Origin: a virus
IMG/VR virus record: IMGVR_UViG_3300047560_001038
Location: 1-61,743 of that record
Direction: 5' to 3' (one strand)
Length of the DNA: 61,743 nt
Translations under genes and position numbers: made by a program
Notes under the pieces: generated by a model
What the model saw: only the letters and a program-made list of their open reading frames with translations
What the model was told of the DNA's origin: nothing
Databases searched by the model: none
In this document: in pieces, positions 1 to 52,160 of the stretch
How the letters are laid out: each line of letters opens with the position of its first letter
How positions within the stretch are numbered: the stretch's first letter is position 1

Positions 1-89
1 TTGTCACAGTCGCACCAAGCGACATCGTTTTCACAAGCCATACAAACGTTTCCGTAGTATTCGTCTCGGAAGTCTTCATATTCAAACAT
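1..89 (-). CDS. Small Cys-rich protein, 3' end outside window
   Basis: Leftward reading frame cut by the window edge; 29 codons are visible. The start ATG (bases 87-89) follows an AAGGAC ribosome-binding site with normal spacing, the same site used by the small rightward genes near 1.1-1.3 kb. The visible product has Cys residues arranged CxxC then CxC with acidic residues between, suggesting a small metal-binding protein. The leader is over 100 bases and carries a two-copy repeat. No function can be named from this fragment. Confidence 0.6.
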   Translation of the reverse strand, partial: MFEYEDFRDEYYGNVCMACENDVAWCDCD

Positions 90-116
90 TCTTTGTCCTT
101 TCTAGAAACCTGAGAT

Positions 117-171
117 TTATTTGCTCTGAGAGGCTCATACCCTTTGGGTCTTATTTGCTCTGAGAGGCTCA
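117..171 (-). repeat. Two-copy direct repeat in a 5' leader
   Basis: A 21-base word occurs at 117-137 and 151-171 (period 34 bases). It lies between the leftward promoter at 207-229 and the start at 89, so it would be transcribed as leader RNA. Each copy contains CTCTGAGAG, which can fold as a 4-base-pair mini-hairpin. It could bind a protein at DNA or RNA level; no known element is recognised. Confidence 0.5.
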
Positions 172-206
172 CTCTCTTTGGTTTCTCTGTTTATCTTTAT
201 GTCTTC

Positions 207-229
207 ATTATAATCGAGACCACCGACAT
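207..229 (-). promoter_or_regulatory. Leftward promoter, ATGTC class
   Basis: On the minus strand TATAAT (212-207) lies 12 bases downstream of ATGTC (229-225). The same ATGTC-N12-(-10) geometry is seen at 790-767 and 1094-1116. It would drive the truncated gene ending at base 1. Confidence 0.5.
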
Positions 230-331
230 ATAACTAGCCAAAATGGGCTATTTTGCAACATTATTCAAAAATGTGCAAGAAATTTGCATTCTTAACGTAA
301 AGACGCAACAATCTTGCGTTTTGCCCGAGCC

Positions 332-352
332 TGTGGATAACTCTGTGGACAA
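332..352. promoter_or_regulatory. DnaA box pair A
   Basis: TGTGGATAA (332-340) is the exact reverse complement of the classical DnaA box TTATCCACA. TGTGGACAA (344-352) is the reverse complement of TTGTCCACA, the usual actinobacterial form. The two are on the same strand 12 bases apart. An inverted ACGCAA / TTGCGT pair lies just upstream near 303-319. Confidence 0.6.
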
Positions 353-404
353 CATTTGTTGCTGTTCACAACATTAGAGCACCCTTGTGGGGAGTGCCGA
401 TTGG

Positions 405-734
405 TTACGGCATCTCATTCACACGGAGAGGGTTACGGTCATAGTTACGAGGGCTAGACATTACCGAGAGGCAATTCACCTTGCCCTGTGCTTGGTTACG
501 AACACAAGAGGCACAAGAGTCACCGTCTACGATGATAGAACCCATACGGCTAGTGAGAGGGCTACCGTAGTAACGCTCACCATCAGTGTACATACGCTGT
601 ACATCAGTGTATCCACCAAGTGAACCATAGCCAGGACGACCGCCAGGGTGATTACGAGTTTCTGACTTGCCACAGTGTGAGCAAGTGATAACCATACTAC
701 GGAGGTTGATAATTCTTTGTACATTTTCATTCAT
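405..734 (-). CDS. Putative zinc-binding hypothetical protein
   Basis: A leftward 109-aa frame. It has a CSHCGK knuckle near the N-terminus and a second CASC pair about 60 residues later, spaced as in a four-Cys zinc ribbon, with a Gly/Arg/Tyr-rich middle. The inner ATG at 734 was chosen; an in-frame ATG at 746 is also possible and neither has a strong ribosome-binding site. A promoter of the ATGTC class lies just upstream. No family is recognised; a small regulatory or nucleic-acid-binding role is only a guess from the Cys pairs and position. Confidence 0.55.
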   Translation of the reverse strand: MNENVQRIINLRSMVITCSHCGKSETRNHPGGRPGYGSLGGYTDVQRMYTDGERYYGSPLTSRMGSIIVDGDSCASCVRNQAQGKVNCLSVMSSPRNYDRNPLRVNEMP

Positions 735-745
735 TTTATTTCTCA

Positions 746-884
746 TTTCTTTTTCTTTATGTATTCATTGTAACATCGACCTACGACATCAAACCCCTGT
801 TTTTCGGGAAAATGGAGGATTCTTGCGTAAAACGTAAAAAGACGCAAAAAAATTGCCCGAGCCTGTGGATAACTCTGTGTATAA
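746..884. repeat. Degenerate direct repeat, copy B (promoter + DnaA boxes)
   Basis: Second copy of the block at 188-352. It contains a leftward promoter, a CCC/GGG mini-hairpin near 794-808, TTGCGT and ACGCAA words in outward orientation and the shared TTGCCCGAGCCTGTGGATAA end. It separates the leftward gene at 405-734 from the rightward genes beginning at 985. Confidence 0.65.
767..790 (-). promoter_or_regulatory. Leftward promoter, ATGTC class
   Basis: Minus-strand TACAAT (772-767) lies 12 bases downstream of GATGTC (790-785). It drives the Cys-rich gene at 405-734. Confidence 0.5.
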
Positions 885-909
885 GTTTTTTATTTATTTT
901 ATTATTTAT
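841..909. other. Possible replication origin: DnaA box pair B plus AT-rich stretch
   Basis: TGTGGATAA (864-872) and TGTGTATAA (876-884) are reverse complements of the DnaA boxes TTATCCACA and TTATACACA, again 12 bases apart on one strand. Immediately after them, 885-909 is almost entirely A and T, as expected of a DNA-unwinding element. ACGCAA/TTGCGT words lie just upstream. DnaA boxes beside an AT-rich tract are a standard origin layout; that it acts as an origin here is inference, and it could instead be a host-DnaA-controlled switch. Confidence 0.45.
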
Positions 910-921
910 CGGCGTGTCGTG

Positions 922-949
922 TTGTTAGATGTCAGGGGTAGCGTATAGA
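922..949 (+). promoter_or_regulatory. Rightward early promoter
   Basis: TTGTTA (922-927), GATGTC (928-933) and TATAGA (944-949). The ten-base word GTTAGATGTC recurs before the next rightward promoter at 1089. A second TATAGA follows at 951-956. It would drive the 33-aa membrane peptide gene. Confidence 0.45.
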
Positions 950-984
950 GTATAGACATACCAAGAGATAAGGAAACAAACAAA

Positions 985-1086
985 ATGGAAATCACAATCG
1001 TCATCATCGGAGCACTCACCGTCATCGCTGTCGGAGTAGCAATTGGAAGTCTCCTCAGCTGGTGGGTACACAAGGACATCTACTAA
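985..1086 (+). CDS. 33-aa single-pass membrane peptide
   Basis: Begins with ATG eight bases after AAGGAA and encodes 33 aa. Residues 3-26 are almost wholly hydrophobic (Ile, Val, Leu, Ala, Gly), forming one transmembrane helix; the tail is short and polar with Trp-Trp at the membrane interface. It has its own promoter and a close downstream neighbour with a similar arrangement. Small membrane peptides in phage early regions often alter host envelope or superinfection, but nothing specific is recognised. A spurious frame is possible; ribosome-binding site and amphipathic layout argue against it. Confidence 0.6.
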   Translation: MEITIVIIGALTVIAVGVAIGSLLSWWVHKDIY

Positions 1087-1088
1087 CG

Positions 1089-1116
1089 GTTAGATGTCTG
1101 ACCCCTACCCTATACT
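1089..1116 (+). promoter_or_regulatory. Rightward early promoter, ATGTC class
   Basis: GTTAGATGTC (1089-1098) is followed after 12 bases by TATACT (1111-1116). It drives the small genes at 1142 and 1313. Confidence 0.5.
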
Positions 1117-1141
1117 GATAACAACAAACAAAGGACAAACA

Positions 1142-1303
1142 ATGGAACTCTACGCAGTAGGAATCGAATACGAAGGACTCTTCGCAGTATTCTCCACGGA
1201 GGAAAAGGCTAAGGCATATGTTGCTGAACAGGAAAAGCGTTGGGATATGGTAGGTTGCTCTGACTACTACATCGAAACAATCACGGTAGACGAAAACGAA
1301 TAA
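1142..1303 (+). CDS. 53-aa hypothetical protein
   Basis: The ATG at 1142 follows AAAGGAC with good spacing. An upstream in-frame ATG at 1094 lies within the promoter and is rejected. The product is a compact acidic protein alternating hydrophobic and charged residues (ELYAVGIEYEGLFAVFST then a Lys/Glu helix), consistent with a small alpha/beta fold. It ends one base before the ribosome-binding site of the next gene. No family recognised. Confidence 0.65.
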   Translation: MELYAVGIEYEGLFAVFSTEEKAKAYVAEQEKRWDMVGCSDYYIETITVDENE

Positions 1304-1312
1304 GGACAAAGA

Positions 1313-1426
1313 ATGAACAACACACAACGACTCCGTTACTTGGAACTAATCACTATCGCTAAGAGTGATGTGATGACAGCAAGCGAGTTCGATGAACTGC
1401 TAGGCTTGGAAAAACTAAAGCGATAG
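1313..1426 (+). CDS. 37-aa hypothetical protein
   Basis: Nine bases separate it from the preceding stop, and AAGGAC gives a good ribosome-binding site. The 37-aa product looks like two short helices with charged ends. The stop TAG overlaps the first bases of a hairpin that probably ends this transcript. Its presence is supported by translational coupling and the terminator; its function is unknown. Confidence 0.55.
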   Translation: MNNTQRLRYLELITIAKSDVMTASEFDELLGLEKLKR

Positions 1427-1440
1427 GGGCAGTACCCCTA
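1424..1440 (+). terminator. Hairpin ending the rightward early operon
   Basis: TAGGGG (1424-1429) and CCCCTA (1435-1440) form a perfect 6-base-pair stem with a 5-base loop. No T-run follows directly, so it is a weak intrinsic terminator or a processing hairpin. The 100 bases after it (to 1543) hold no gene and are AT-rich; this is the gap between converging transcripts. Confidence 0.4.
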
Positions 1441-1543
1441 GCAGTGTGCTCACTATGTTTTGCGAAAATAGTACACACGATCATGCATCATTCACATTAA
1501 TAAAAAATTCAGATTTTCATCAAATTGAAAAATAAAAATTTTT

Positions 1544-1636
1544 TCAGAAATCGTACAAATGCCAACAGCCATCCCAGCATTCACAATCTAGGATTTTAGG
1601 TTTTTCGGGGGTATCTGGATCAGTCTTTGTAGTCAT
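1544..1636 (-). CDS. 30-aa Cys/Trp-rich micropeptide
   Basis: The leftward ATG at 1636 is preceded by AGGA and overlaps the 3' end of the membrane-peptide gene upstream in another frame. The 30-aa product has a Thr/Pro/Lys-rich N-terminus and a C-terminal CECWDGCW cluster. The Cys-Trp spacing could bind metal or form disulfides. It is the last of a chain of three overlapping leftward genes. Very short, so a chance frame cannot be excluded. Confidence 0.4.
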   Translation of the reverse strand: MTTKTDPDTPEKPKILDCECWDGCWHLYDF

Positions 1637-1742
1637 CAAACATATCCTGATCTAACTTAAATGCAATACCTATAGCCAATATGCCAATAGCGATAGCTGC
1701 TACAGGAGCACACAATATGATAAGAAGTGCGGTATTTGTCAA
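1620..1742 (-). CDS. 40-aa single-pass membrane protein (TTG start)
   Basis: A TTG at 1742 overlaps the TGA stop of the upstream HTH gene, a typical coupled start. About 27 hydrophobic residues (Ala, Ile, Leu, Val, Gly) form one membrane helix, followed by an acidic tail rich in Asp. It overlaps the next gene by 17 bases. The start codon is inferred from coupling rather than from a strong ribosome-binding site. Function unknown. Confidence 0.45.
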   Translation of the reverse strand: MTNTALLIILCAPVAAIAIGILAIGIAFKLDQDMFDDYKD

Positions 1743-1918
1743 GGTAGATCACCAGGTTCTAACGAAGAACTCTTAATGATCCCATATTGTACAAGAAGGG
1801 CATTAATAACCTTTCTTGATGCTTTGAACTCACGAGCAATCTGTCGTGATGTCTTGCCAAGCTCAACAAACTGTGTTTGGAGCATATTCTGTGTGAGAAT
1901 TGTGTTGTAGTATGTCAT
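1739..1918 (-). CDS. Small helix-turn-helix protein, probably leaderless
   Basis: A 59-aa basic protein. Residues about 20-47 read as a helix-turn-helix: GKTSRQIAREF, a turn, then a recognition helix around SRKVINALLVQYG. The layout is similar to the 52-aa HTH protein at 56096-56254, and the two look like paralogs. Its ATG lies only six bases downstream of a full promoter (TTGATT-N17-TATACT), so the message is predicted to begin at the start codon. A role as a small DNA-binding regulator is likely; the target is unknown. Confidence 0.65.
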   Translation of the reverse strand: MTYYNTILTQNMLQTQFVELGKTSRQIAREFKASRKVINALLVQYGIIKSSSLEPGDLP

Positions 1919-1924
1919 GTTTAT

Positions 1925-1953
1925 AGTATAGCAAATTTTCGGAGGTAAATCAA
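1925..1953 (-). promoter_or_regulatory. Leftward sigma70-type promoter, leaderless
   Basis: On the minus strand, TTGATT (1953-1948), a 17-base spacer and TATACT (1930-1925), followed after six bases by ATG. This geometry predicts transcription starting at or next to the A of the start codon. Confidence 0.65.
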
Positions 1954-1981
1954 TCAGCTTCTGCTGATGGCGTAGCCGTAT

Positions 1982-2179
1982 TTACCATTTATGCTCAGGA
2001 CATCTAGCTCTCTCTAACTTAGTCTTCATACGCATAAAACACTTACATACGGTACATGTTTGAGAACTTTTGTGAAACAATGGACATTCCTGACATATCG
2101 CCAAACGCTCCTGTTGTAATTCTTTGGTACTACGCTTTTCATTTGGATTTAGTAGGTCCCAAGGTCGCACTTCGCTCAT
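1982..2179 (-). CDS. Small zinc-finger protein
   Basis: 65 aa from the ATG at 2179; the in-frame ATG at 2197 is upstream of the predicted transcription start and is rejected. The C-terminal half has Cys pairs in the order CQEC, CTVC, KC and a final Cys-Pro before a KW end, like the small Cys-rich proteins common in phages of many hosts that end CPxxKW. Probably binds zinc. The -10 lies six bases before the ATG, again predicting a leaderless message. Confidence 0.65.
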   Translation of the reverse strand: MSEVRPWDLLNPNEKRSTKELQQERLAICQECPLFHKSSQTCTVCKCFMRMKTKLERARCPEHKW

Positions 2180-2185
2180 ATGTCT

Positions 2186-2191
2186 ATTATA
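2186..2191 (-). promoter_or_regulatory. -10 element of a leaderless leftward promoter
   Basis: TATAAT on the minus strand (2191-2186), six bases from the ATG at 2179. No clear -35. Confidence 0.45.
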
Positions 2192-2415
2192 CAACAATTA
2201 AGTTTTTCGCCGTACAACCCAGTGTTTTGCTATATTTTAAAAACCCAACATTTAAGATTTTCTACACATATTTCCCCATATGGTGTTTGGTACAAAGCGG
2301 TGTTTGGGGATGGGGTGTTTGGTTACTCCACGCCGCCGATTTTTCGCTTCGCTCAAATGACACTACATCTAGTTATTGTCGAAGAACTTTACATCAAGAT
2401 ATTGTAAAAGTAGTT
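2192..2415. other. Non-coding gap between divergent genes
   Basis: AT-rich spacer between the leftward zinc-finger gene and the rightward holin-like gene. Open frames on both strands have poor composition and no ribosome-binding site. It contains repeated GGTGTTTGG words near 2282-2322 and nothing else I can name. Confidence 0.4.
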
Positions 2416-2421
2416 TATAAT
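2416..2421 (+). promoter_or_regulatory. -10 element before the holin-like gene
   Basis: TATAAT nine bases before the ATG at 2431, so at most a 2-3 base leader. No convincing -35. Confidence 0.45.
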
Positions 2422-2430
2422 TGAAACATC

Positions 2431-2700
2431 ATGGATTTTGCAACTTTACAAATGATCTTTGGAATCACAATTAGTATTGGTACTGTTATTACTCTTGTTG
2501 CGTCAGGTGTAAAGTGGTTAGTAAAACATTACTTTGATGATATTAAAAAAGAGCTTAAGCCCAATAGTGGTTCTTCACTAAAAGATCAAGTGACAAGACT
2601 TGAAAAGGAAATGGCTCAAGCAGAAGCACTTCGTAAAGAAATGAATACAAAAATAGATCACATGTATGAGATTCTACTTGATTTTGTATCCAAGAAGTAA
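2431..2700 (+). CDS. Holin-like membrane protein
   Basis: 89 aa. Residues 5-31 form one hydrophobic segment (ITISIGTVITLVASGVKWLV), followed by a basic stretch and, from about residue 50, a Glu/Lys/Met coiled coil. It lies directly upstream of the secreted endolysin, the usual place for a holin or lysis accessory protein. One membrane span with a cytoplasmic coiled coil fits a class III holin or a holin-like partner. The sequence alone does not prove pore formation. It ends before a good intrinsic terminator, so it is transcribed separately from the endolysin. Confidence 0.55.
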   Translation: MDFATLQMIFGITISIGTVITLVASGVKWLVKHYFDDIKKELKPNSGSSLKDQVTRLEKEMAQAEALRKEMNTKIDHMYEILLDFVSKK

Positions 2701-2713
2701 TATACTTGTCCTT

Positions 2714-2736
2714 AAGCCTTCGGCTTTGATTTGTTT
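2714..2736 (+). terminator. Intrinsic terminator after holin-like gene
   Basis: AAGCC (2714-2718), TTC loop, GGCTT (2722-2726), then a T-rich run (TGATTTGTTTC). Compact rho-independent layout. Confidence 0.65.
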
Positions 2737-2779
2737 CTTTAGGGAGACTATCTTGTAGGTTGTTTTTCTTACTTCCTCT

Positions 2780-2811
2780 CCCCCCTACCCCCCAAGTTAT
2801 ATAAATATAAC
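2780..2811. other. C-tract and inverted repeat in lysis control region
   Basis: Two runs of six C (2780-2785, 2788-2793) separated by TA give paired G6 runs on the minus strand, able in principle to form a G-quadruplex. Directly after is an inverted repeat GTTATA (2796-2801) / TATAAC (2806-2811). The 280 bases between 2700 and 2981 hold no gene. Confidence 0.4.
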
Positions 2812-2841
2812 AAGAAAATGGAACCTTGTCAAGTCCATTGT

Positions 2842-2877
2842 CGTAACTTTTCGTAAATATACGTAACATTTCGTAAC
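2842..2877. repeat. Four 10-bp iterons (CGTAA)
   Basis: CGTAAC, CGTAAA, CGTAAC and CGTAAC begin at 2842, 2852, 2862 and 2872, exactly ten bases apart, so all face the same side of the helix. They end about 30 bases upstream of the endolysin promoter. This is typical of a cooperative regulator binding array. CGTAAA words also occur near the DnaA boxes at the left end. Confidence 0.6.
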
Positions 2878-2905
2878 AATTGGTATTTGCGTATTTCTTA
2901 AACTC

Positions 2906-2914
2906 TGATATACT
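2906..2914 (+). promoter_or_regulatory. Extended -10 promoter of endolysin (TGATATACT)
   Basis: TGn extended -10 with no good -35. The following bases read GGTGT, as also after the promoter at 20124. Confidence 0.55.
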
Positions 2915-2950
2915 GGTGTAACAACACCTTAACCTATAAGGTGTTTTTCT
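2915..2950 (+). terminator. Attenuator-like hairpins in endolysin leader
   Basis: AACACCTT (2923-2930) pairs with AAGGTGTT (2938-2945) and runs into a T-rich tract (TTTTTCTCTTT), giving an intrinsic terminator only some 30 bases after the promoter. GGTGT (2915-2919) can alternatively pair with ACACC (2924-2928), which would break the terminator stem. A strong ribosome-binding site (GAGGAGGAGG) follows. Confidence 0.55.
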
Positions 2951-2980
2951 CTTTATAAAAGAGGAGGAGGTATCTGAAAT

Positions 2981-3676
2981 ATGAAAACAAATCCTAGAGT
3001 AGTAAAGAGCTTTTTAACAAGTTCTATAGTTTCATTTATATTGTTTGGCACTTCATTTTGTGGAGTGTCAAATGCAAATGCAGAGTCTGAAGACTTTAGC
3101 ATTTCTAGGTCAGTCTATAGTGAGGCTGAGGTACGAGAGGCCATCCAGTCTGCGAGGGATGAATACAACGCAGAATATAACAAAATATATAAGCAAGTAG
3201 TTCAAGACGAAATGAACAGAATTGCAGATCCAAACTCAACTCAATCAAAGTTTGTCAAATTTGCATTGCAGTTTGAAGGAACACCATATTGGTATGGGGG
3301 ATCAACTCCATCTGGTTTTGATTGTTCTGGATTTGTAGGATATGTCATTAAGCATGAACTAGGAATTGATGTTAGACACTCTGCTTCTTCACAGATGCAA
3401 TTAGGTGTTAAGGTATCAGATCCACTACCTGGCGATCTTATAGGCTGGGGATGGGGTAATTATTTTCACCACGTTGGTATTTACATTGGCGACGGTAAAG
3501 AAATAGATGCTCTGAATCCATACCGTGATCTATATGTTCGTGATGTAAAAACAATGACAGCATGGATGGGAAAACCAACCTATGTCAGAATAATTGAAAA
3601 GAACAGAAACTTCAATGCAGATAGAATTACAAAAAGAATCATGGATAATGGTTTTGCGTTTACATTTGCACAATAG
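2981..3676 (+). CDS. Secreted NlpC/P60 endolysin
   Basis: 231 aa. Residues 1-34 form a signal peptide: basic start, hydrophobic core, and an ANA-E cleavage site. Residues about 44-82 are a charged helical linker. From about residue 90 to the end is an NlpC/P60 cysteine peptidase domain: YGG and FDCSGFV with catalytic Cys115, then HHVGIYIG with catalytic His163/164, and GDL just before it. Such enzymes cut peptide stems of peptidoglycan. With its own signal it can leave the cell through the Sec route, so the holin may only trigger or assist. A virion-associated role is less likely given the signal peptide. Confidence 0.85.
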   Translation: MKTNPRVVKSFLTSSIVSFILFGTSFCGVSNANAESEDFSISRSVYSEAEVREAIQSARDEYNAEYNKIYKQVVQDEMNRIADPNSTQSKFVKFALQFEGTPYWYGGSTPSGFDCSGFVGYVIKHELGIDVRHSASSQMQLGVKVSDPLPGDLIGWGWGNYFHHVGIYIGDGKEIDALNPYRDLYVRDVKTMTAWMGKPTYVRIIEKNRNFNADRITKRIMDNGFAFTFAQ

Positions 3677-20535: not shown

Positions 20536-22135
20536 TGATGAACTAATGAGAGTTCCAATTCCAATCAAGCTTGATGATGAAATCATTAACGAAAGTCCAT
20601 TCAAAAATGCTGACCCATTTAAAAAGTCATGGGATCAACTAAAGGACCTGGCTGGACTTGACACAAACTTTAAGCGTCGCACATCTCGTATTGAAAAGGT
20701 TCAGTACACAGATAACTATATGGATTCTGCAAATGCAGTACAAAGTGGTACTAATGATGCAAAGTCAAAGAAAATCAATCCTGGTGTTGTATACCGCAAC
20801 GCATACGGACTCTTTGATGTTATTACTCCACCATACGATCTTTATGAGCTTGCAAATTACTATGACACATCCTTTGCAAACCACGCTGCTGTTGATGCAA
20901 AGGTTGAGAACACAGTTGGTCTTGGATATGACTTTATGGTTTCAGACAAGACAATGCTTAAGCTTGAGGACACAGAAGACAAGGAAGCCGTAAAGAGAGC
21001 ACGTAAGCGTATTGAACGACTTAAGATTCAGCTTCGTGATTGGATTGAAAGCCTTAACCTTGATGAAAGCTTTACCAATGTTCTTGAGAAAGTTATCACA
21101 GATTATTATTCAGTAGGTAACGGCTACATCGAAGTTGGTCGTACCACAACAGGTGAGATTGGCTACATTGGTCATATCCCTGCTACAACACTTCGTGTCC
21201 GTCGTATGCATGATGGATTCGTTCAGATTATCGGTAACAAGGTAGTCTACTTTAGAAATTTCGGGGCAAAGAATCCAAACCCCATCACACAGGATCCACG
21301 TCCTAACGAGATCATTCACATTAAGGAATACTCTCCACTAAACACATTCTATGGTGTACCAGATGTTATTGCTGCAATGCCATCGCTTCTTGGAGACGCA
21401 CTTGCATCACAATACAACATCGACTACTTTGGAAACAAGGCAGTTCCTCGTTACGTTGTAACCCTTAAGGGTGCTCAGCTTTCACAAGAGGCCGAAGACA
21501 AGATGTTTAGATTCCTTCAGGCAGGTCTCAAGGGTCAGAACCACAGAACACTTTACATTCCACTTCCTGGAGACTCAGATCTTAACAAGGTTGAGTTTAA
21601 GATGGAAGCAATCGAAAGTGGTGTTCAAGAAGGATCCTTCAGTCAGTACCGTAAGCAGACTCGTGATGATATTCTCATTGCCCACCAGGTTCCACTTTCC
21701 AAACTAGGTGGATCGGATTCTTCTCAGATTGCGGCAAGCTTGGCACAGGATCGCACATTTAAAGAACAGGTCGCTAGACCAGCCCAACGCAATCTTGAGA
21801 AGATTCTAAACAAGATCATCCGTGAAAAGACAGACATCCTTGAACTCAAGTTTAATGAACTTACACTCACAGATGAAATCGCACAATCACAGATTCTTGA
21901 GCGTTATGTTAAGACACAGATTATGCTTCCAAACGAAGCTCGTGAAAAGCTTGGTCTTCCACAGATTCCTGGCGGAGACAAGCCATTTGAAATGACATCT
22001 CGTCAGTCTACAGATGCTCGTGCTAACACAGCACAGAACAGAGGACGTGACTCTGAACGAGCAGCCAACTCTTCAGATGGACCAACCACAACAAGTGGTC
22101 GTAACCCAAAGGGCGAGGGTAGATCCTCAAACTGA
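20528..22135 (+). CDS. Portal protein
   Basis: 535 aa from ATG 20528 inside the end of the previous gene. Features of SPP1/HK97-type portals: an N-terminal NPGVVYRNAYGLFDVITPPYD region, VENTVGLGYDFMV, a long helical stem, HIKEYSPLNTFYGVPDV (the common L..fYGvP motif), then RDDILIAHQVPLSKLG and LPNEAREKLGLPQIPGGD near the C-terminus. Forms the dodecameric ring at the capsid vertex through which DNA is packaged. Followed by protease and capsid genes as usual; the terminase genes are unusually 35 kb away. Confidence 0.9.
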   Translation: MPNDELMRVPIPIKLDDEIINESPFKNADPFKKSWDQLKDLAGLDTNFKRRTSRIEKVQYTDNYMDSANAVQSGTNDAKSKKINPGVVYRNAYGLFDVITPPYDLYELANYYDTSFANHAAVDAKVENTVGLGYDFMVSDKTMLKLEDTEDKEAVKRARKRIERLKIQLRDWIESLNLDESFTNVLEKVITDYYSVGNGYIEVGRTTTGEIGYIGHIPATTLRVRRMHDGFVQIIGNKVVYFRNFGAKNPNPITQDPRPNEIIHIKEYSPLNTFYGVPDVIAAMPSLLGDALASQYNIDYFGNKAVPRYVVTLKGAQLSQEAEDKMFRFLQAGLKGQNHRTLYIPLPGDSDLNKVEFKMEAIESGVQEGSFSQYRKQTRDDILIAHQVPLSKLGGSDSSQIAASLAQDRTFKEQVARPAQRNLEKILNKIIREKTDILELKFNELTLTDEIAQSQILERYVKTQIMLPNEAREKLGLPQIPGGDKPFEMTSRQSTDARANTAQNRGRDSERAANSSDGPTTTSGRNPKGEGRSSN

Positions 22136-45412: not shown

Positions 45413-45720
45413 TGGCTGAACGCAAAGACCGTATGGCTTTGCTCAGTAGATACAACAAGTTGCACCTGCAACACTATGAAGCAAAGTCGTTGCTAAATCT
45501 AAACGTTGAGCAATGGGCTGCAGACGGACTAGTAGAGTCTTATGGTCTGCCATATTGCTACGACTTACTTGAGTATTTCTTCTCAGTAAGTCAGTCCCCA
45601 TCCTGGAAGTATTTTGCCAACAACGCAGACAAGATCATTGATGCACGAGACATGGCAAACCAAGACATTATCGATAGAGAACAACGCCGTAAAATGGCAA
45701 AGGAGTGGTTAAGTGAATGA
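45412..45720 (+). CDS. Hypothetical protein upstream of helicase
   Basis: 102 aa, helical and charged, with an aromatic centre (LPYCYDLLEYFFSVSQSPSW). Co-translated with the helicase (eight-base overlap), so it could be a loader or accessory subunit; no motif proves this. Confidence 0.6.
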   Translation: MAERKDRMALLSRYNKLHLQHYEAKSLLNLNVEQWAADGLVESYGLPYCYDLLEYFFSVSQSPSWKYFANNADKIIDARDMANQDIIDREQRRKMAKEWLSE

Positions 45721-46933
45721 CACGGAATCGAAGCTTATATCTGCAGTCCTTGAGGACAAGCAGGTACATGTACTGTTGCAAGCCAACGTCGATACAATTC
45801 TTCGTACCCATAATGATGTATGGAATTTTATTAGGACTTACTTTGAGCATAACAGCACTGTCCCACCTGTAAGCCTCGTAGTTGAGAAGTTTCGTGACTT
45901 TGAGCCTGTCCAGGGTATTGGTGCAACAAAGTATCACCTAGAAGAACTACAGGCAGAATACATGAATGATAGCCTCAAGGATATCCTTCGTAACGCTGCT
46001 GCAGAGGTTCAGAGTGGTCAGAGTGTACAGGCACTTGAGGAACTAATCACAAAGACTTCAGAGCTTAAGAAGAATACATCTGCAATTCGTGATATCGATG
46101 TAACAGATATTGATTCAGCAGTTGCATTCTATGAGCAGGTCCAGAAACAAAATGAACTTGGATCAATCGGAATCAAGACTGGACTTCCAGGGTTTGACAA
46201 CTACCTTCCTTCTGGAATTATGCCAGGACAGCTTGGAGTATTTCTTGCATATCCAGGTATCGGAAAGTCATGGCTCTCCCTATACTTTGCGGTACAGGCA
46301 TGGAAGCAGGGCAAGTCTCCTATGGTAATCAGCCTTGAAATGAGTGAGACTGAAGTTCGTAACCGTGTGTTTACAATCATGGGAGATGGTCTTTGGTCAC
46401 ATCGAAAGCTTTCTGCTGGTCAGGTAGAACTTGATATGCTGAAGTCGTGGCACGAAAAGAATCTCAAGGGTAAGCCAGAGTTTCATATCATTTCTAATGA
46501 TTCTGGCGGAGAAGTAACTCCTTCAGTTTTGCGAGGGAAGATTGACCAGTACAAGCCAGACTTCATTATCGTAGACTATCTACAGCTCATGGCTCCTAAT
46601 CAAAAGTCAGACAATGAGACTGTTCGTATGAAGAACCTCTCACGTGAGCTAAAGCTTATGGCTATTTCTGAAGAAGTTCCAATCATTGCTATCTCGTCAG
46701 CAACACCAGACGATGTTAACAAGCTTGACACTGTTCCTACACTTGGTCAAACAGCGTGGTCACGTCAGATCGCATACGATGCTGACTGGGTTATGGCTCT
46801 TGGTCGTGGTACAAACTCAGATGTCATTGAGTGTGTCTTCCGTAAGAACCGTAACGGATTCATGGGGGAGTTCATGGTACAGGCAGATTTCGATAAGGGA
46901 TACTATAAGTACAAGGACTTTGAAGATAACTAG
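45713..46933 (+). CDS. dnaB: Replicative DNA helicase (DnaB-like)
   Basis: 406 aa, GTG start after AGGAG. Residues 1-120 are a helical N-terminal domain. The RecA-like motor begins with GLPGFDNYLPSGIMPGQLG, Walker A AYPGIGKS (179-186), the B-motif FIIVDYLQLM near 280, and the arginine-finger region FRKNRNGFMG near the end. Unwinds DNA 5' to 3' as a hexamer, with the primase two genes downstream. Slightly shorter than host DnaB because the N-terminal domain is reduced. Confidence 0.9.
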   Translation: MNDTESKLISAVLEDKQVHVLLQANVDTILRTHNDVWNFIRTYFEHNSTVPPVSLVVEKFRDFEPVQGIGATKYHLEELQAEYMNDSLKDILRNAAAEVQSGQSVQALEELITKTSELKKNTSAIRDIDVTDIDSAVAFYEQVQKQNELGSIGIKTGLPGFDNYLPSGIMPGQLGVFLAYPGIGKSWLSLYFAVQAWKQGKSPMVISLEMSETEVRNRVFTIMGDGLWSHRKLSAGQVELDMLKSWHEKNLKGKPEFHIISNDSGGEVTPSVLRGKIDQYKPDFIIVDYLQLMAPNQKSDNETVRMKNLSRELKLMAISEEVPIIAISSATPDDVNKLDTVPTLGQTAWSRQIAYDADWVMALGRGTNSDVIECVFRKNRNGFMGEFMVQADFDKGYYKYKDFEDN

Positions 46934-46945: not shown

Positions 46946-47272
46946 ATGCAAAATCTTCATCACAGGTCTATCAAGAAGTTCGGTCTTGACGGTGTTATCC
47001 ACGAGGATATCGCTGTTGGTAGATTAAAAGATGAATACATTAGATTACTTACTCTGGAAATGCAACTTTCGGGGTATGCCAAGAGACTGGATATTGACCC
47101 AGACTTCACAATCAGCTATAATGAACATAACGACACATATAGTTTCATATTAACAATGTACGGTGTATATGTAGGAAAGAATAAATCACAATGGATATCA
47201 GGAATAGACGGAACAACAATAATATTTACACAAAAGAGCAAATCCAAAGAGTTCTCACAGGAGCAGGGGTAA
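46946..47272 (+). CDS. Hypothetical protein between helicase and primase
   Basis: 108 aa. Helix (DEYIRLLTLEMQLSGYAKRL) then beta strands (YSFILTMYGVYVG). Its last 27 codons are also read by the primase gene in another frame, an unusually long overlap. Function unknown. Confidence 0.65.
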   Translation: MQNLHHRSIKKFGLDGVIHEDIAVGRLKDEYIRLLTLEMQLSGYAKRLDIDPDFTISYNEHNDTYSFILTMYGVYVGKNKSQWISGIDGTTIIFTQKSKSKEFSQEQG

Positions 47273-48135
47273 CTATTGAATCAGAGGTAGACTCTGACTT
47301 TATTATCTTCTGCCCATATCACGGTAATCATAGAACACCTGCTGGTGAAATTGATAAGAACAACGGTACGTTCTTTTGCTTTTCCTGCCACAAGATTGCT
47401 AACCTAACTGAATTTGTTATGTACATGACAAACCGTACATTCTTTGAGGCAGCACGGTATATCAAGTCGAAGGAGACTGGATCTAACATTGAGGCAGACG
47501 TTAGTCGTCAACTTATTGAGAAGCCAGATTACGTCCCATTTGACGAGCTGTTAATTCAACGCCTCAACTCACAGGCTCTTGAAGCACCTCGTGCTATGCG
47601 TTACTACGAGGGTCGTCAGATTAATGAAGATTCCGTAAACAAGTTTAAACTTGGCTTTTCTGAAAAGCAGGATATGGTAACCATTCCAGTCCACTCTCCA
47701 GATGGTATGCCAGTAGGATTTGTTGGTCGCTCAATTGAGGGTAAGGAGTTTAAGAATACTCCAGGACTACCCAAAGCAAAACTTCTGTTTAACCTGCATA
47801 GGGTCAAAACAGCAGACAGGGTATATGTAGTCGAATCATCTTTCGATGCCATACGCCTTGATCAAGTTGGAATGCCAGCCGTTGCCACACTAGGGGCAAA
47901 TGTTTCCAACATTCAAATAGACCTGCTAAAGAAGTATTTCAATAACATATACGTTATTGCAGATAACGATGAAGCAGGGGGAAATATGAAAGACAAGATC
48001 GTAGAGAAGCTTGGATCTCGTGTGACTGTCGTACAACTAGATAAACAATACAAGGATATCGGAGACATGTTGGATGAAGATATAAAAAATCTTGACACAT
48101 CATTTGACAAAACCATCATGTCTATGCTAAACTGA
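47191..48135 (+). CDS. dnaG: DNA primase (DnaG-like)
   Basis: 314 aa. CHC2 zinc ribbon with Cys41, His44, Cys63, Cys66, then an RNA-polymerase domain with YYEGRQINEDSV and GFVGRSI. Toprim motifs are VVESSFDAIRL (the catalytic Glu) and YVIADNDEAGG (metal-binding Asp pair). Makes primers for the phage polymerase. Shorter than bacterial DnaG since the helicase-binding domain is absent or very small. The early start is needed to include the helix before the zinc ribbon. Confidence 0.88.
   Translation: MDIRNRRNNNNIYTKEQIQRVLTGAGVTIESEVDSDFIIFCPYHGNHRTPAGEIDKNNGTFFCFSCHKIANLTEFVMYMTNRTFFEAARYIKSKETGSNIEADVSRQLIEKPDYVPFDELLIQRLNSQALEAPRAMRYYEGRQINEDSVNKFKLGFSEKQDMVTIPVHSPDGMPVGFVGRSIEGKEFKNTPGLPKAKLLFNLHRVKTADRVYVVESSFDAIRLDQVGMPAVATLGANVSNIQIDLLKKYFNNIYVIADNDEAGGNMKDKIVEKLGSRVTVVQLDKQYKDIGDMLDEDIKNLDTSFDKTIMSMLN
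48104..48133 (+). promoter_or_regulatory. Promoter of ssDNA-binding protein gene
   Basis: TTGACA (48104-48109), 18-base spacer, TAAACT (48128-48133) with TGC extension, in the 3' end of the primase gene. Confidence 0.6.
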
Positions 48136-48881: not shown

Positions 48882-51800
48882 ATGAGTTACGCTGGGCTTC
48901 ACGTACACACCCACTACTCGCTATTTGACGGAATTGCCACACCACAAGAATATGTGGATCGTGCCGTAGAGCTGGGAATGCCAGCAGTAGCAATCACTGA
49001 CCACGGTAGTCTCTCAGGACACCGTGAATTCTATCGCTCTGCTAAGGAAGCAGGGATTATCCCCATTCTGGGAATCGAAGGGTACATTACTAAAGACCGC
49101 TTTGACCATGAAGATAAGAAGGATAAGAACGATCCCCTAGACCTTAACTATAATCACCTTATTATTCTTGCTAAGAATGCTGAGGGTCTAGAGAACCTTA
49201 ACAAGCTTAATGAACTTGCTTGGACAGATGGGTTTTTCAAGAAGCCTCGTATGGACTGGGAAATCCTTGAGAAGTACAAGGACGGTCTCATTATTACCTC
49301 TGGCTGTTTGTCTGGCTACCTTGCCAAAGCAATTGAAGCAGACAATCTTGCTGCTGCAAAGATGCACTTGCAGTGGGCTAAGGATGTATTCGGTGACGAC
49401 TACTACATTGAGGTAATGCCACACAATCCTGCAGAGGTTAATAAGATTATTCTTGAACTTGCAGACGAGTTCGGTATCAAGCCAATCACCACTCCTGACT
49501 GCCACCACGCAGACAAGAGCCAGAAGGAAATTCAGGAACTCAAGCTTATCCTCAACTCGTATGCAAACAAGACTGAAAAGGATGTTACCTACGAGAAGTC
49601 CAAGAAGTATGACAACCTCATGGATCGTCTGGACTACCTTTATGGTGCAGACCGTCAAATGTCGTTTAATAAATTTGATATTCATTTGCTCTCTGACCAA
49701 GAGATGCGTGATGCTATGGGTGCTCAGGGCATTGACCGTGAAGACATCTATTCCAACACCCTTGAGATTGTTGGCAAGATTGAGGACTACGGCATTGAGG
49801 ACCACCGTGATCTTCTCCCTGTCCAGTATCAAGACCCTAACGGAGAGCTGCTCAGCCTCGCTATGGAGGGCTTAAAGGCTAAGGGGCTAGACCAGAACCA
49901 AGAGTATCTTGATCGTCTTAACGAAGAACTGAAGATTATTGGAGACAAGAACTTTGGTCCATACTTCCTCGTTGTACGCTCCATGATTTCATGGGCTAAG
50001 AAAGAGGGCATCCGTGTGGGTCCAGGTCGTGGTTCTGCTGCAGGTTCACTGCTTTGTTATGCACTAGAAATTACAGACATTGACCCAATCGTACATGGTC
50101 TTCTGTTTTTCCGATTCATTAATCCAGAGCGTAATGACTTCCCAGATATTGATACAGACATTCAGGATTCACGACGTGAAGAGGTCAAGGATTACCTTGT
50201 ACGTCAGTACCGTCACGTTGCATCTATTGCTACATTCTTGCAGTTCAAGGATAAGGGTGTTGTGCGAGACATTGCTCGTGTACTCAACATCCCACTTCCT
50301 GACGTTAACAAGGTTATGAAGCTTGTAGACACTTGGGACGAGTACTGCTCCTCACCATCGACTGCAGAGTTCCGTGAGAAGTATCCAGAGATTGAGAAGT
50401 ATGGAGAGCAACTCCGTGGTCGCATTCGTGGTACTGGTATCCACGCTGCAGGTGTTGTTACATCCAAGGAGCCTATCTTCAAGTTTGCACCACTAGAGAC
50501 TCGTACATCTCCAGGAAACAAAGAACGTATCCCAGTTGTGGCGGTAGACATGGAAGAAGCAGAGCGTATTGGTCTAATTAAGATCGATGCTCTGGGTCTT
50601 AAGACACTCTCTGTTATTCAAGACACTTTGGATATTATCAAAGAACGTTCTGGTAAATCACTAGACCTCAAGACGATTGACATGGAGGATGCAAATGTAT
50701 ATCGTATGCTTTCAGACGGATACACCAAGGGTGTCTTCCAGTGTGAAGCCACACCATATACTAACCTGCTTGTAAAGATGGGTGTCAAGAACTTCTCAGA
50801 ACTTGCTGCATCTAACGCTCTTGTTCGTCCTGGTGCTATGAACACCATTGGTAAAGATTACATTGCTCGTAAGCATGGTAAGCAGAACATTGCATATCAC
50901 CACCAAGTTATGAAGTCATTCACACAGGACACCTATGGATGTATTCTGTACCAGGAGCAGGTCATGCTTGCCTGTGTGGAGCTTGGCGGTATGTCAATGG
51001 CTACTGCTGACAAGGTTCGTAAGATCATTGGTAAGAAGAAAGATGCTAAAGAGTTCAAGCAGTTCCAAGATCAGTTCGTAAAGGGTGCATCACGTTTCGT
51101 ATCGCCCAACATCGCTGAGGAGTTATGGCACGACTTTGAGGCACACGCTGGCTACTCATTTAACAAGAGTCACGCTGTAGCCTACTCTACGCTCTCTTAC
51201 CAGACTGCATGGCTAAAGACATACTACCCAATTGAGTTTATGTTTGCACTTCTCAAGAACGAGAAGGATAAGGATGCTCGCACAGAATACCTTATTGAAG
51301 CCAAGCGTATGGGAATTCCAATCAAGTTGCCACACATCAACGACAGCGATGCAGACTTCAAGATTGAGGGCAAGGGTATCCGATTCGGACTGACAGCAAT
51401 CAAGTTTATTTCCGATAACATTGCTGAAAAGTATATTGCTGCTCGTCCATTTAATTCTTACAAAGAACTTGAAGAGTTCACGTTTGGCAAAGGTAACGGA
51501 GTTAACTCTCGTGCATTGTCAGCACTACGTTTAATCGGTGCTGCAACCTTCCCAGACAATCCTCGTAATGATGAAGAGGTACGTGAAAACCTCTACGAGT
51601 ACTTAAACCTACCAGAGTTCAATGCTTCTATTCCACAACACTACTACGCATTTATCAGCGATGCAGAGGAGTACGAAGAAAAGGGTGCATTCATTCTGAT
51701 GGGAATGGTTAAGGGCATCAAGCGAGGTAAGGGATGGTCACGAGTAGAGATTCTGGACAAGACTGGAGCCGTTGGTATCTTCGATGAAGAACAGTCCCAG

Positions 51801-52160
51801 ATCGAAGCAGGTAAGACATATCTTATTCTAGCCAGTGACAACAGAGTAGTCACAGCAATCCCTGCTGATGAACTCAAGGGTAATGATTCAGGAATGATCA
51901 AGATCCTTAACTACAAGATGTTGCCATACAAGGACGATGAAATGTTTGTCGTCTCATTCAAACCACGCATTACAAAGGCTGGCAAGAAAATGGCATCGAT
52001 GGTCGTTGCAGACTCCTCACGAGACCTGCACTCCATCACAGTCTTCCCGACTACATTCGCTAAGGCGTATATGAAAATTAAGGAAGGCAACGTATATAAA
52101 TTCTCTTTTGGTAAGACAAAAGACGGAACAACAATAATGGAAGAGGTATATGATGTTTGA
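48882..52160 (+). CDS. dnaE: DNA polymerase III alpha subunit (DnaE-like)
   Basis: 1092 aa. PHP domain at the N-terminus with metal-ligand motifs HVHTHYS (7-13), ITDHGSLSG and later PDCHHADK, so the PHP nuclease looks intact. Palm signature PDIDTDIQ (D424, D426) sits after GPGRGSAAGSLL. Fingers/tail include RPGAMNTIG, SFNKSHAVAYSTLSYQTAWL and an OB-fold-like C-terminus (GMVKGIKRGKGWSRVEIL). This is the phage's replicative polymerase; a separate epsilon proofreader was not seen. Overlaps the next gene by 11 bases. Confidence 0.93.
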   Translation: MSYAGLHVHTHYSLFDGIATPQEYVDRAVELGMPAVAITDHGSLSGHREFYRSAKEAGIIPILGIEGYITKDRFDHEDKKDKNDPLDLNYNHLIILAKNAEGLENLNKLNELAWTDGFFKKPRMDWEILEKYKDGLIITSGCLSGYLAKAIEADNLAAAKMHLQWAKDVFGDDYYIEVMPHNPAEVNKIILELADEFGIKPITTPDCHHADKSQKEIQELKLILNSYANKTEKDVTYEKSKKYDNLMDRLDYLYGADRQMSFNKFDIHLLSDQEMRDAMGAQGIDREDIYSNTLEIVGKIEDYGIEDHRDLLPVQYQDPNGELLSLAMEGLKAKGLDQNQEYLDRLNEELKIIGDKNFGPYFLVVRSMISWAKKEGIRVGPGRGSAAGSLLCYALEITDIDPIVHGLLFFRFINPERNDFPDIDTDIQDSRREEVKDYLVRQYRHVASIATFLQFKDKGVVRDIARVLNIPLPDVNKVMKLVDTWDEYCSSPSTAEFREKYPEIEKYGEQLRGRIRGTGIHAAGVVTSKEPIFKFAPLETRTSPGNKERIPVVAVDMEEAERIGLIKIDALGLKTLSVIQDTLDIIKERSGKSLDLKTIDMEDANVYRMLSDGYTKGVFQCEATPYTNLLVKMGVKNFSELAASNALVRPGAMNTIGKDYIARKHGKQNIAYHHQVMKSFTQDTYGCILYQEQVMLACVELGGMSMATADKVRKIIGKKKDAKEFKQFQDQFVKGASRFVSPNIAEELWHDFEAHAGYSFNKSHAVAYSTLSYQTAWLKTYYPIEFMFALLKNEKDKDARTEYLIEAKRMGIPIKLPHINDSDADFKIEGKGIRFGLTAIKFISDNIAEKYIAARPFNSYKELEEFTFGKGNGVNSRALSALRLIGAATFPDNPRNDEEVRENLYEYLNLPEFNASIPQHYYAFISDAEEYEEKGAFILMGMVKGIKRGKGWSRVEILDKTGAVGIFDEEQSQIEAGKTYLILASDNRVVTAIPADELKGNDSGMIKILNYKMLPYKDDEMFVVSFKPRITKAGKKMASMVVADSSRDLHSITVFPTTFAKAYMKIKEGNVYKFSFGKTKDGTTIMEEVYDV

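Follow-up and report, generated by a model that had tools for sequence, protein, structure and literature searches.

DnaA-box pairs upstream of two leftward promoter-like sites in a phage record: candidate early promoters with host-DnaA sites

Phage lambda carries host DnaA sites at its pR promoter, where DnaA works together with the phage's own origin and a single promoter is involved, and to our knowledge the use of DnaA as a transcription factor by phages is known mainly from this example. Direct DnaA-box pairs are a feature of bacterial oriC, and datA is a site of DnaA titration. Here we describe two blocks with paired DnaA boxes at the left end of a viral record, together with their counterparts in related phages. 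Like lambda pR, they tie host DnaA sites to a phage promoter that is presumably early; they differ in that several modules stand before different small genes, and in that the phages are unrelated to lambda and encode a helicase, primase and polymerase of their own. With oriC they share the box words, the 12-bp pair and an AT-rich stretch beside one pair, but the AT tract is on the opposite side, the modules are scattered and a promoter is attached.

The window, that is the whole stretch of DNA analysed, is a complete IMG/VR record, classed as virus, with a length of 61,743 bases. An earlier note made from the sequence had assigned to it its own DnaB-like helicase, DnaG-like primase and DnaE together with host-type DnaA boxes. 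All of these are confirmed (Table 1), as are genes for SSB and RecA, and the boxes proved to be non-random and conserved in the lineage. DnaE is nearest to that of Streptomyces phages of the Loccivirinae (57% to BillNye), the gene order helicase-primase-SSB-DnaE-RecA-terminase resembles that of Stanwilliamsviridae/Loccivirinae phages, and the host is presumably an actinobacterium. A blastn comparison of positions 1-3000 with phage records gave no match, and protein scans of IMG/VR with the NlpC-like ORF or the 1603-aa ORF yielded no relatives. A phage-encoded DnaA was considered and rejected: a search of 16 records (the window and 15 relatives, some of them fragments) returned no Bac_DnaA_C domain, and its control was positive in 10 of 14 cases.

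Table 1. Coordinates of features in the window and, in the last two rows, of DnaA-box elements in related phages
Feature	Position	Strand	Remarks
Start of leftward gene behind copy 1 (MFEYEDFRDEYYGNVCMACEND..)	3..89	-	truncated by contig start at base 1
Copy-1 transcript leader	117..181	-	31-nt direct repeat
Leftward promoter-like site 1	207..229	-	ATGTCGGTGGTC motif (from 229) and -10 TATAAT (207-212)
Inverted repeat ACGCAA-N5-TTGCGT	303..319	.	17 bp, between box pair and promoter
DnaA-box pair, copy 1	332..352	-	TTGTCCACA-GAG-TTATCCACA; 332-340 TTATCCACA (perfect), 344-352 TTGTCCACA (one mismatch); 12 bp apart; pair in 0/1000 shuffles
Leftward ORF behind copy 2	405..746	-	113 aa, CxxC pairs
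Leftward promoter-like site 2	767..789	-	ATGTCGTAGGTC motif (from 789) and -10 TACAAT (767-772)
DnaA-box pair, copy 2	864..884	-	TTATACACA-GAG-TTATCCACA; 864-872 TTATCCACA (perfect), 876-884 TTATACACA (one mismatch); 12 bp apart
AT-rich tract	880..909	.	least stable 30-bp window of the record (nearest-neighbour energy)
Rightward promoter-like site, ATGTC family	929..960	+	without DnaA boxes
DnaB-like helicase	45713..46933	+	PF03796 2.2e-29, phrog_19 2.2e-64
DnaG-like primase	47191..48135	+	PF13155/PF01807, phrog_47 5.9e-57
DnaE-type DNA polymerase III alpha	48882..52160	+	
Loccivirinae DnaA-box gap	L245:19428-19715 (BillNye 119428-119715)		homologues L246-L253; no origin annotation
Second-type ATCTTACTG elements	L226:16825, L227:4789, L233:3970, L238:11844, L239:5942		

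The two box pairs are present where the earlier note had placed them, and their perfect members are the only perfect DnaA boxes of the record. Their number alone is unremarkable, with two or more perfect boxes in 181 of 1000 dinucleotide shuffles, and boxes with at most one mismatch (22 against 19.9 expected) are not in excess, so that the signal in the window is the arrangement of the boxes. Two perfect boxes within 600 bp occurred in 8 of 1000 shuffles, and a perfect box with a partner of at most one mismatch 12 bp off in none. The 19-mer GCCTGTGGATAACTCTGTG is carried by at least 119 viral stretches; among the matches listed it continues as GATAA, completing the second box, in 90 of 121 occurrences, and the stretches range from 31 to 73% GC, which makes the pair as such common in phage contigs. 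Specific to the present case is the architecture around the pair, not the pair itself.

The duplication described earlier is real in a gapped alignment, whose ungapped segments measure 37 nt (89% identity at a spacing of 532), 45 nt (76% at 560) and 19 nt (84%). The blocks are not free-standing, however, but form the upstream regions of two leftward genes. On the minus strand the order is DnaA-box pair, GGCTCGG, TTGCGT/ACGCAA words, promoter-like site, leader and leftward gene. The ACGCAA/TTGCGT words, also pointed out before, are located at 303/314 and 842/823, and the inverted repeat formed at copy 1 recurs at L226:3168, L226:4795 and L227:17270. Promoter-like site 1 lies 102 bp downstream of the perfect box of copy 1 and site 2 lies 74 bp downstream of that of copy 2. 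Both belong to a motif compiled from 131 sites, approximately AAATGTC(A/G)G(A/T)CCC with TATAAT 17 bases after its A and often an extended TG, which is a consensus and not a mapped transcription start. A second rightward site of the same ATGTC family starts at 1094 and is, like the first, without boxes. The ORF behind copy 2 matches nothing in Pfam or PHROGs, and a search of 17 relative stretches yielded no homologue. The leader repeat of copy 1 contains GAGCCT and AGCAAATAA. An Rfam scan gave no match in the window and tRNAs only in 12 relative stretches.

Relatives were collected by two routes. With DnaE, 80 loci were kept and the records of 40 searched, many of them fragments that perhaps lack the early arm; a box pair with at most three mismatches was found in 14 of these 40 records (none in a backward-read control), and of 41 records, the window included, 26 have a perfect box. 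A scan with an alignment of the neighbouring ORF at 2431-2700 gave 80 loci; a few with very short upstream arms were dropped, and the 38 with an arm of at least 5 kb were used for counting. These 38 related IMG/VR arms, 353 kb in all, hold 97 perfect copies of TTATCCACA, and the 337 kb downstream in these loci hold 5; permuted words (n=300) reached a mean of 3.9 and a maximum of 18. At least one perfect box is present in 31 of the 38 arms and at least two in 25, although not all of these counts are independent since some loci are close relatives (e.g. L261/L263). Among whole neighbour-gene records 27 of 29 have a perfect box, the records G050 and G051 having none. When the 9-mers in the arms of nine loci resembling the window were ranked by enrichment, with no prior choice of word, TTATCCACA came second. 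The top one, CGACACGCC/GGCGTGTCG (41 against 0 downstream), often lies immediately upstream of promoters and has a single copy in the window at 911-919.

Same-strand box spacings below 60 bp fall only at 11/12 (17 cases), 21/22 (7) and 41/42 bp (4), as expected from helical phasing, and permuted words (n=150) gave no 12-bp pairs. Three relatives, G001 (locus L226), G002 (L227) and G004 (L230), are syntenic with the genes at the left end of the window. Each has two box clusters 420-745 bp apart in the orientation of the window and upstream of two promoters, with a spacing within clusters of 21-33 bp, not 12, and single perfect boxes in L227. Their arms contain 8-13 promoters each, a minority of them with boxes; two neighbouring promoters have three boxes each in L226 and two each in L230, and two promoters of L227 have one and two.

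In the relatives boxes and promoters are linked more often than expected by chance. Of 79 box clusters, 39 are followed in the leftward direction by a promoter no more than 250 bp downstream, against 13.6% at random. This set, which is partly hand-picked, was drawn from the window and 38 of the 80 loci after removal of near-duplicates, and among the loci are five with short arms that were known to have boxes (L259, L273, L288, L312 and L318; 6 of 10 clusters); without these five and the window (2 of 2) the link holds for 31 of 67 clusters. The distance from box to promoter is mostly 40-120 bp, with a range of 36 to 247 bp. The genes behind the boxed promoters vary and include CxxC proteins, several small families and singletons, so that box, promoter and leader are kept while the downstream gene is swapped; a module in L258, for example, has leader repeats of the copy-1 type after its promoter but a different gene behind. 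Six modules of one geometry have a mean identity of 0.27 over the 60 bp upstream, which jumps to 0.76 between the boxes and is 0.65 on the promoter side of box 2; only this contrast of the flanks is used, as the modules were selected by perfect boxes and a box identity of 1.0 is circular. Other conserved repeats occur between boxes and promoter in the relatives.

With moderate confidence we propose that the blocks are early promoters bearing host-DnaA sites, the binding and the regulation being predicted from the sequence. They would be two copies of one control region, each placed before a leftward early gene. Host DnaA would recognise the box pairs, which are in helical phase and some 75-100 bp upstream of the phage promoter, and once bound would either activate or repress transcription from the ATGTC motif and -10 box, which are taken to work as a promoter; early transcription would thereby become responsive to host DnaA. 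The relatives suggest that the boxes precede early-gene switches rather than mark a proven replication origin. A phased DnaA-box promoter module that extends across the lineage would make it testable whether these phages read the replication cycle of their host.

Several findings run against a promoter function. Some boxes are oriented away from the promoter, the distance between box and promoter is not constant, 42 of the 97 arm boxes are intergenic and about half lie inside naive ORFs, and 40 of the 79 clusters, among them noncoding elements at convergent junctions, have no recognised promoter within 250 bp. Clusters away from promoters, the many perfect boxes per arm and the inconstant downstream genes would suit a sink in the style of datA or a decoy array, in which the growing number of phage copies would titrate host DnaA on their boxes and halt host initiation. 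The likeness to datA is a cluster of perfect boxes; here, however, the boxes are attached to promoters, only four are present in the window, and G050 and G051 lack a perfect box altogether. A sink would need neither the promoter linkage nor the fixed geometry seen in several lineages. We regard titration as unlikely.

Binding by DnaA is itself a prediction from the sequence, and another protein, of phage or host, might bind a word that happens to match the DnaA box. The promoter-proximal words CGACACGCC and TGTGAN6TCACA are equally enriched, which indicates that the arm is rich in protein sites generally. We know of no alternative binder of the DnaA-box word, and the exact 9-mer, its variants TTGTCCACA and TTATACACA and the turn-phased spacing match what is familiar from chromosomal DnaA sites. 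A different binder is quite improbable.

The blocks had been put forward in the earlier note as a candidate origin. Host DnaA on the two clusters, with their box pairs 532 bp apart, would then open the AT tract, and the DnaB-like helicase, primase and DnaE of the phage would be loaded as at a bipartite oriC. The tract described after the second pair is real: the 30-bp window from 880 is the weakest duplex of the record and adjoins copy 2. Over longer windows its best 50-bp stretch ranks about 250th and its best 100-bp stretch about 1787th for stability in the record. It could serve to unwind the duplex, or else act as an upstream element for the rightward promoter. In the origins of E. coli and B. 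subtilis the AT-rich element lies on the opposite side of the DnaA boxes from the tract found here, which is 5' of the boxes, and inspection by eye revealed no such tract at the boxes of relatives and no DnaA-trio element. In L226, L227 and L230 the two clusters, at a distance of 420-745 bp, would fit a bipartite origin; so would the exact copy-1 pair, which as a 23-mer occurs in 57 bacterial stretches, mostly actinobacterial by title, that need not be origins.

An origin would be expected once per replicon, a test that rests on the relatives because the window holds only the end of an arm. They carry from one to several modules over kilobases, for example four clusters in L271, about half of them before early promoters with differing genes. 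In G001 the clusters coincide with a change of gene direction and of GC skew; skew follows the coding strand, however, in G001, G060 and G065 (e.g. at 81-84 kb of G001), and does not flip at the box cluster of BillNye. The skew analysis proposed earlier thus does not support an origin in the relatives, and the window starts too near the blocks to display an inflection of its own. GC skew was rejected as proof of an origin, being confounded by gene strand. What stands of the earlier interpretation is a phage with its own replication genes and host-type, non-random boxes; the part that made the blocks an origin is unsupported. An origin at the blocks is possible and ranks second to early promoters with DnaA boxes, and on the present evidence we consider it rather unlikely.

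Other noncoding elements with DnaA boxes look more origin-like. Cultured Loccivirinae have a noncoding gap in which two to four perfect boxes fall inside 300 bp; this was so in all seven whole records examined, and also in Circinus and Byblos. These phages resemble the present one in DnaE (57%) and in having clustered perfect boxes; they differ in that no promoter family was recognised there, the noncoding gap extends over 1.0-1.8 kb and most have a further box about 253-256 bp away. The gap DNA is conserved in 35 and, in another search, 42 records, duplicate entries counted. Four of the 42 are tectiviruses sharing the core only. A TTATCCACA cluster of this type is absent from Bmoc and Paradiddles (Boydwoodruffvirinae) and from five more distant phages. 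Literature searches, covering titles and the starts of abstracts, found no paper on origins or DnaA boxes of Stanwilliamsviridae. In the relatives of the window a second type of element consists of boxes followed by a conserved ATCTTACTG with an AT-rich flank. By naive ORF calls it lies in a gap between convergent genes in 6 of 9 stretches, the other three being at a contig end or ambiguous, and in G001 and G002 it is about 11-12 kb from the first box clusters. These noncoding gaps of relatives and Loccivirinae are better candidates for an origin than the blocks of the window. In the cultured Streptomyces phages the conserved, unannotated region is accessible to a direct test of origin function.

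The core of the Loccivirinae gap, without the DnaA boxes, is common to Deltatectivirus phages, which belong to a different viral realm; the match is 71-81% over 96-150 bp, as seen in the comparison of L414 at about 810-1000 (Streptomyces tectivirus Forthebois) with L248:1529-1679.

A pause site for DNA entry, similar to the injection stop signal of T5, was also considered. One paper (PMC13250531) describes the T5 signal as a noncoding phage region holding repeats and DnaA boxes, and in BillNye the Loccivirinae gap sits at 119.4 of 127.1 kb, some 6% of the length from an end. The position differs from that in T5, two-step entry has no support here, and the blocks of the window are promoter regions near structural genes. 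An entry signal is a very remote prospect.

Sister clades add a second class of sites to the early promoters proposed here. CRP-like TGTGAN6TCACA with at most one mismatch occurs 198 times in the 35 arms counted and 9 times downstream (no permutation of the half-sites exceeded 24), and 52 of these sites lie within 120 bp of a box where 11 are expected. They crowd the early arms of L259, L260, L272, L282, L290, L305, L324 and others, close to DnaA boxes and promoters. The three CRP-like sites of the window, at 21085, 50909 and 57328, are far from the blocks, and the feature is thus one of the sister clades and is not claimed for the window. As a tentative suggestion, an actinobacterial phage lineage may have wired its early promoters to global regulators of the host, to DnaA across most of the lineage and in sister clades also to a CRP-family protein, with an exchangeable cassette of box, promoter and leader before changing small genes and a takeover timed by the replication and nutrient state of the host. 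Elsewhere in the window, four CGTAA words with 10-bp spacing at 2841-2878, upstream of an NlpC/P60 gene and followed by a promoter-like TATACT, form a possible regulator site.
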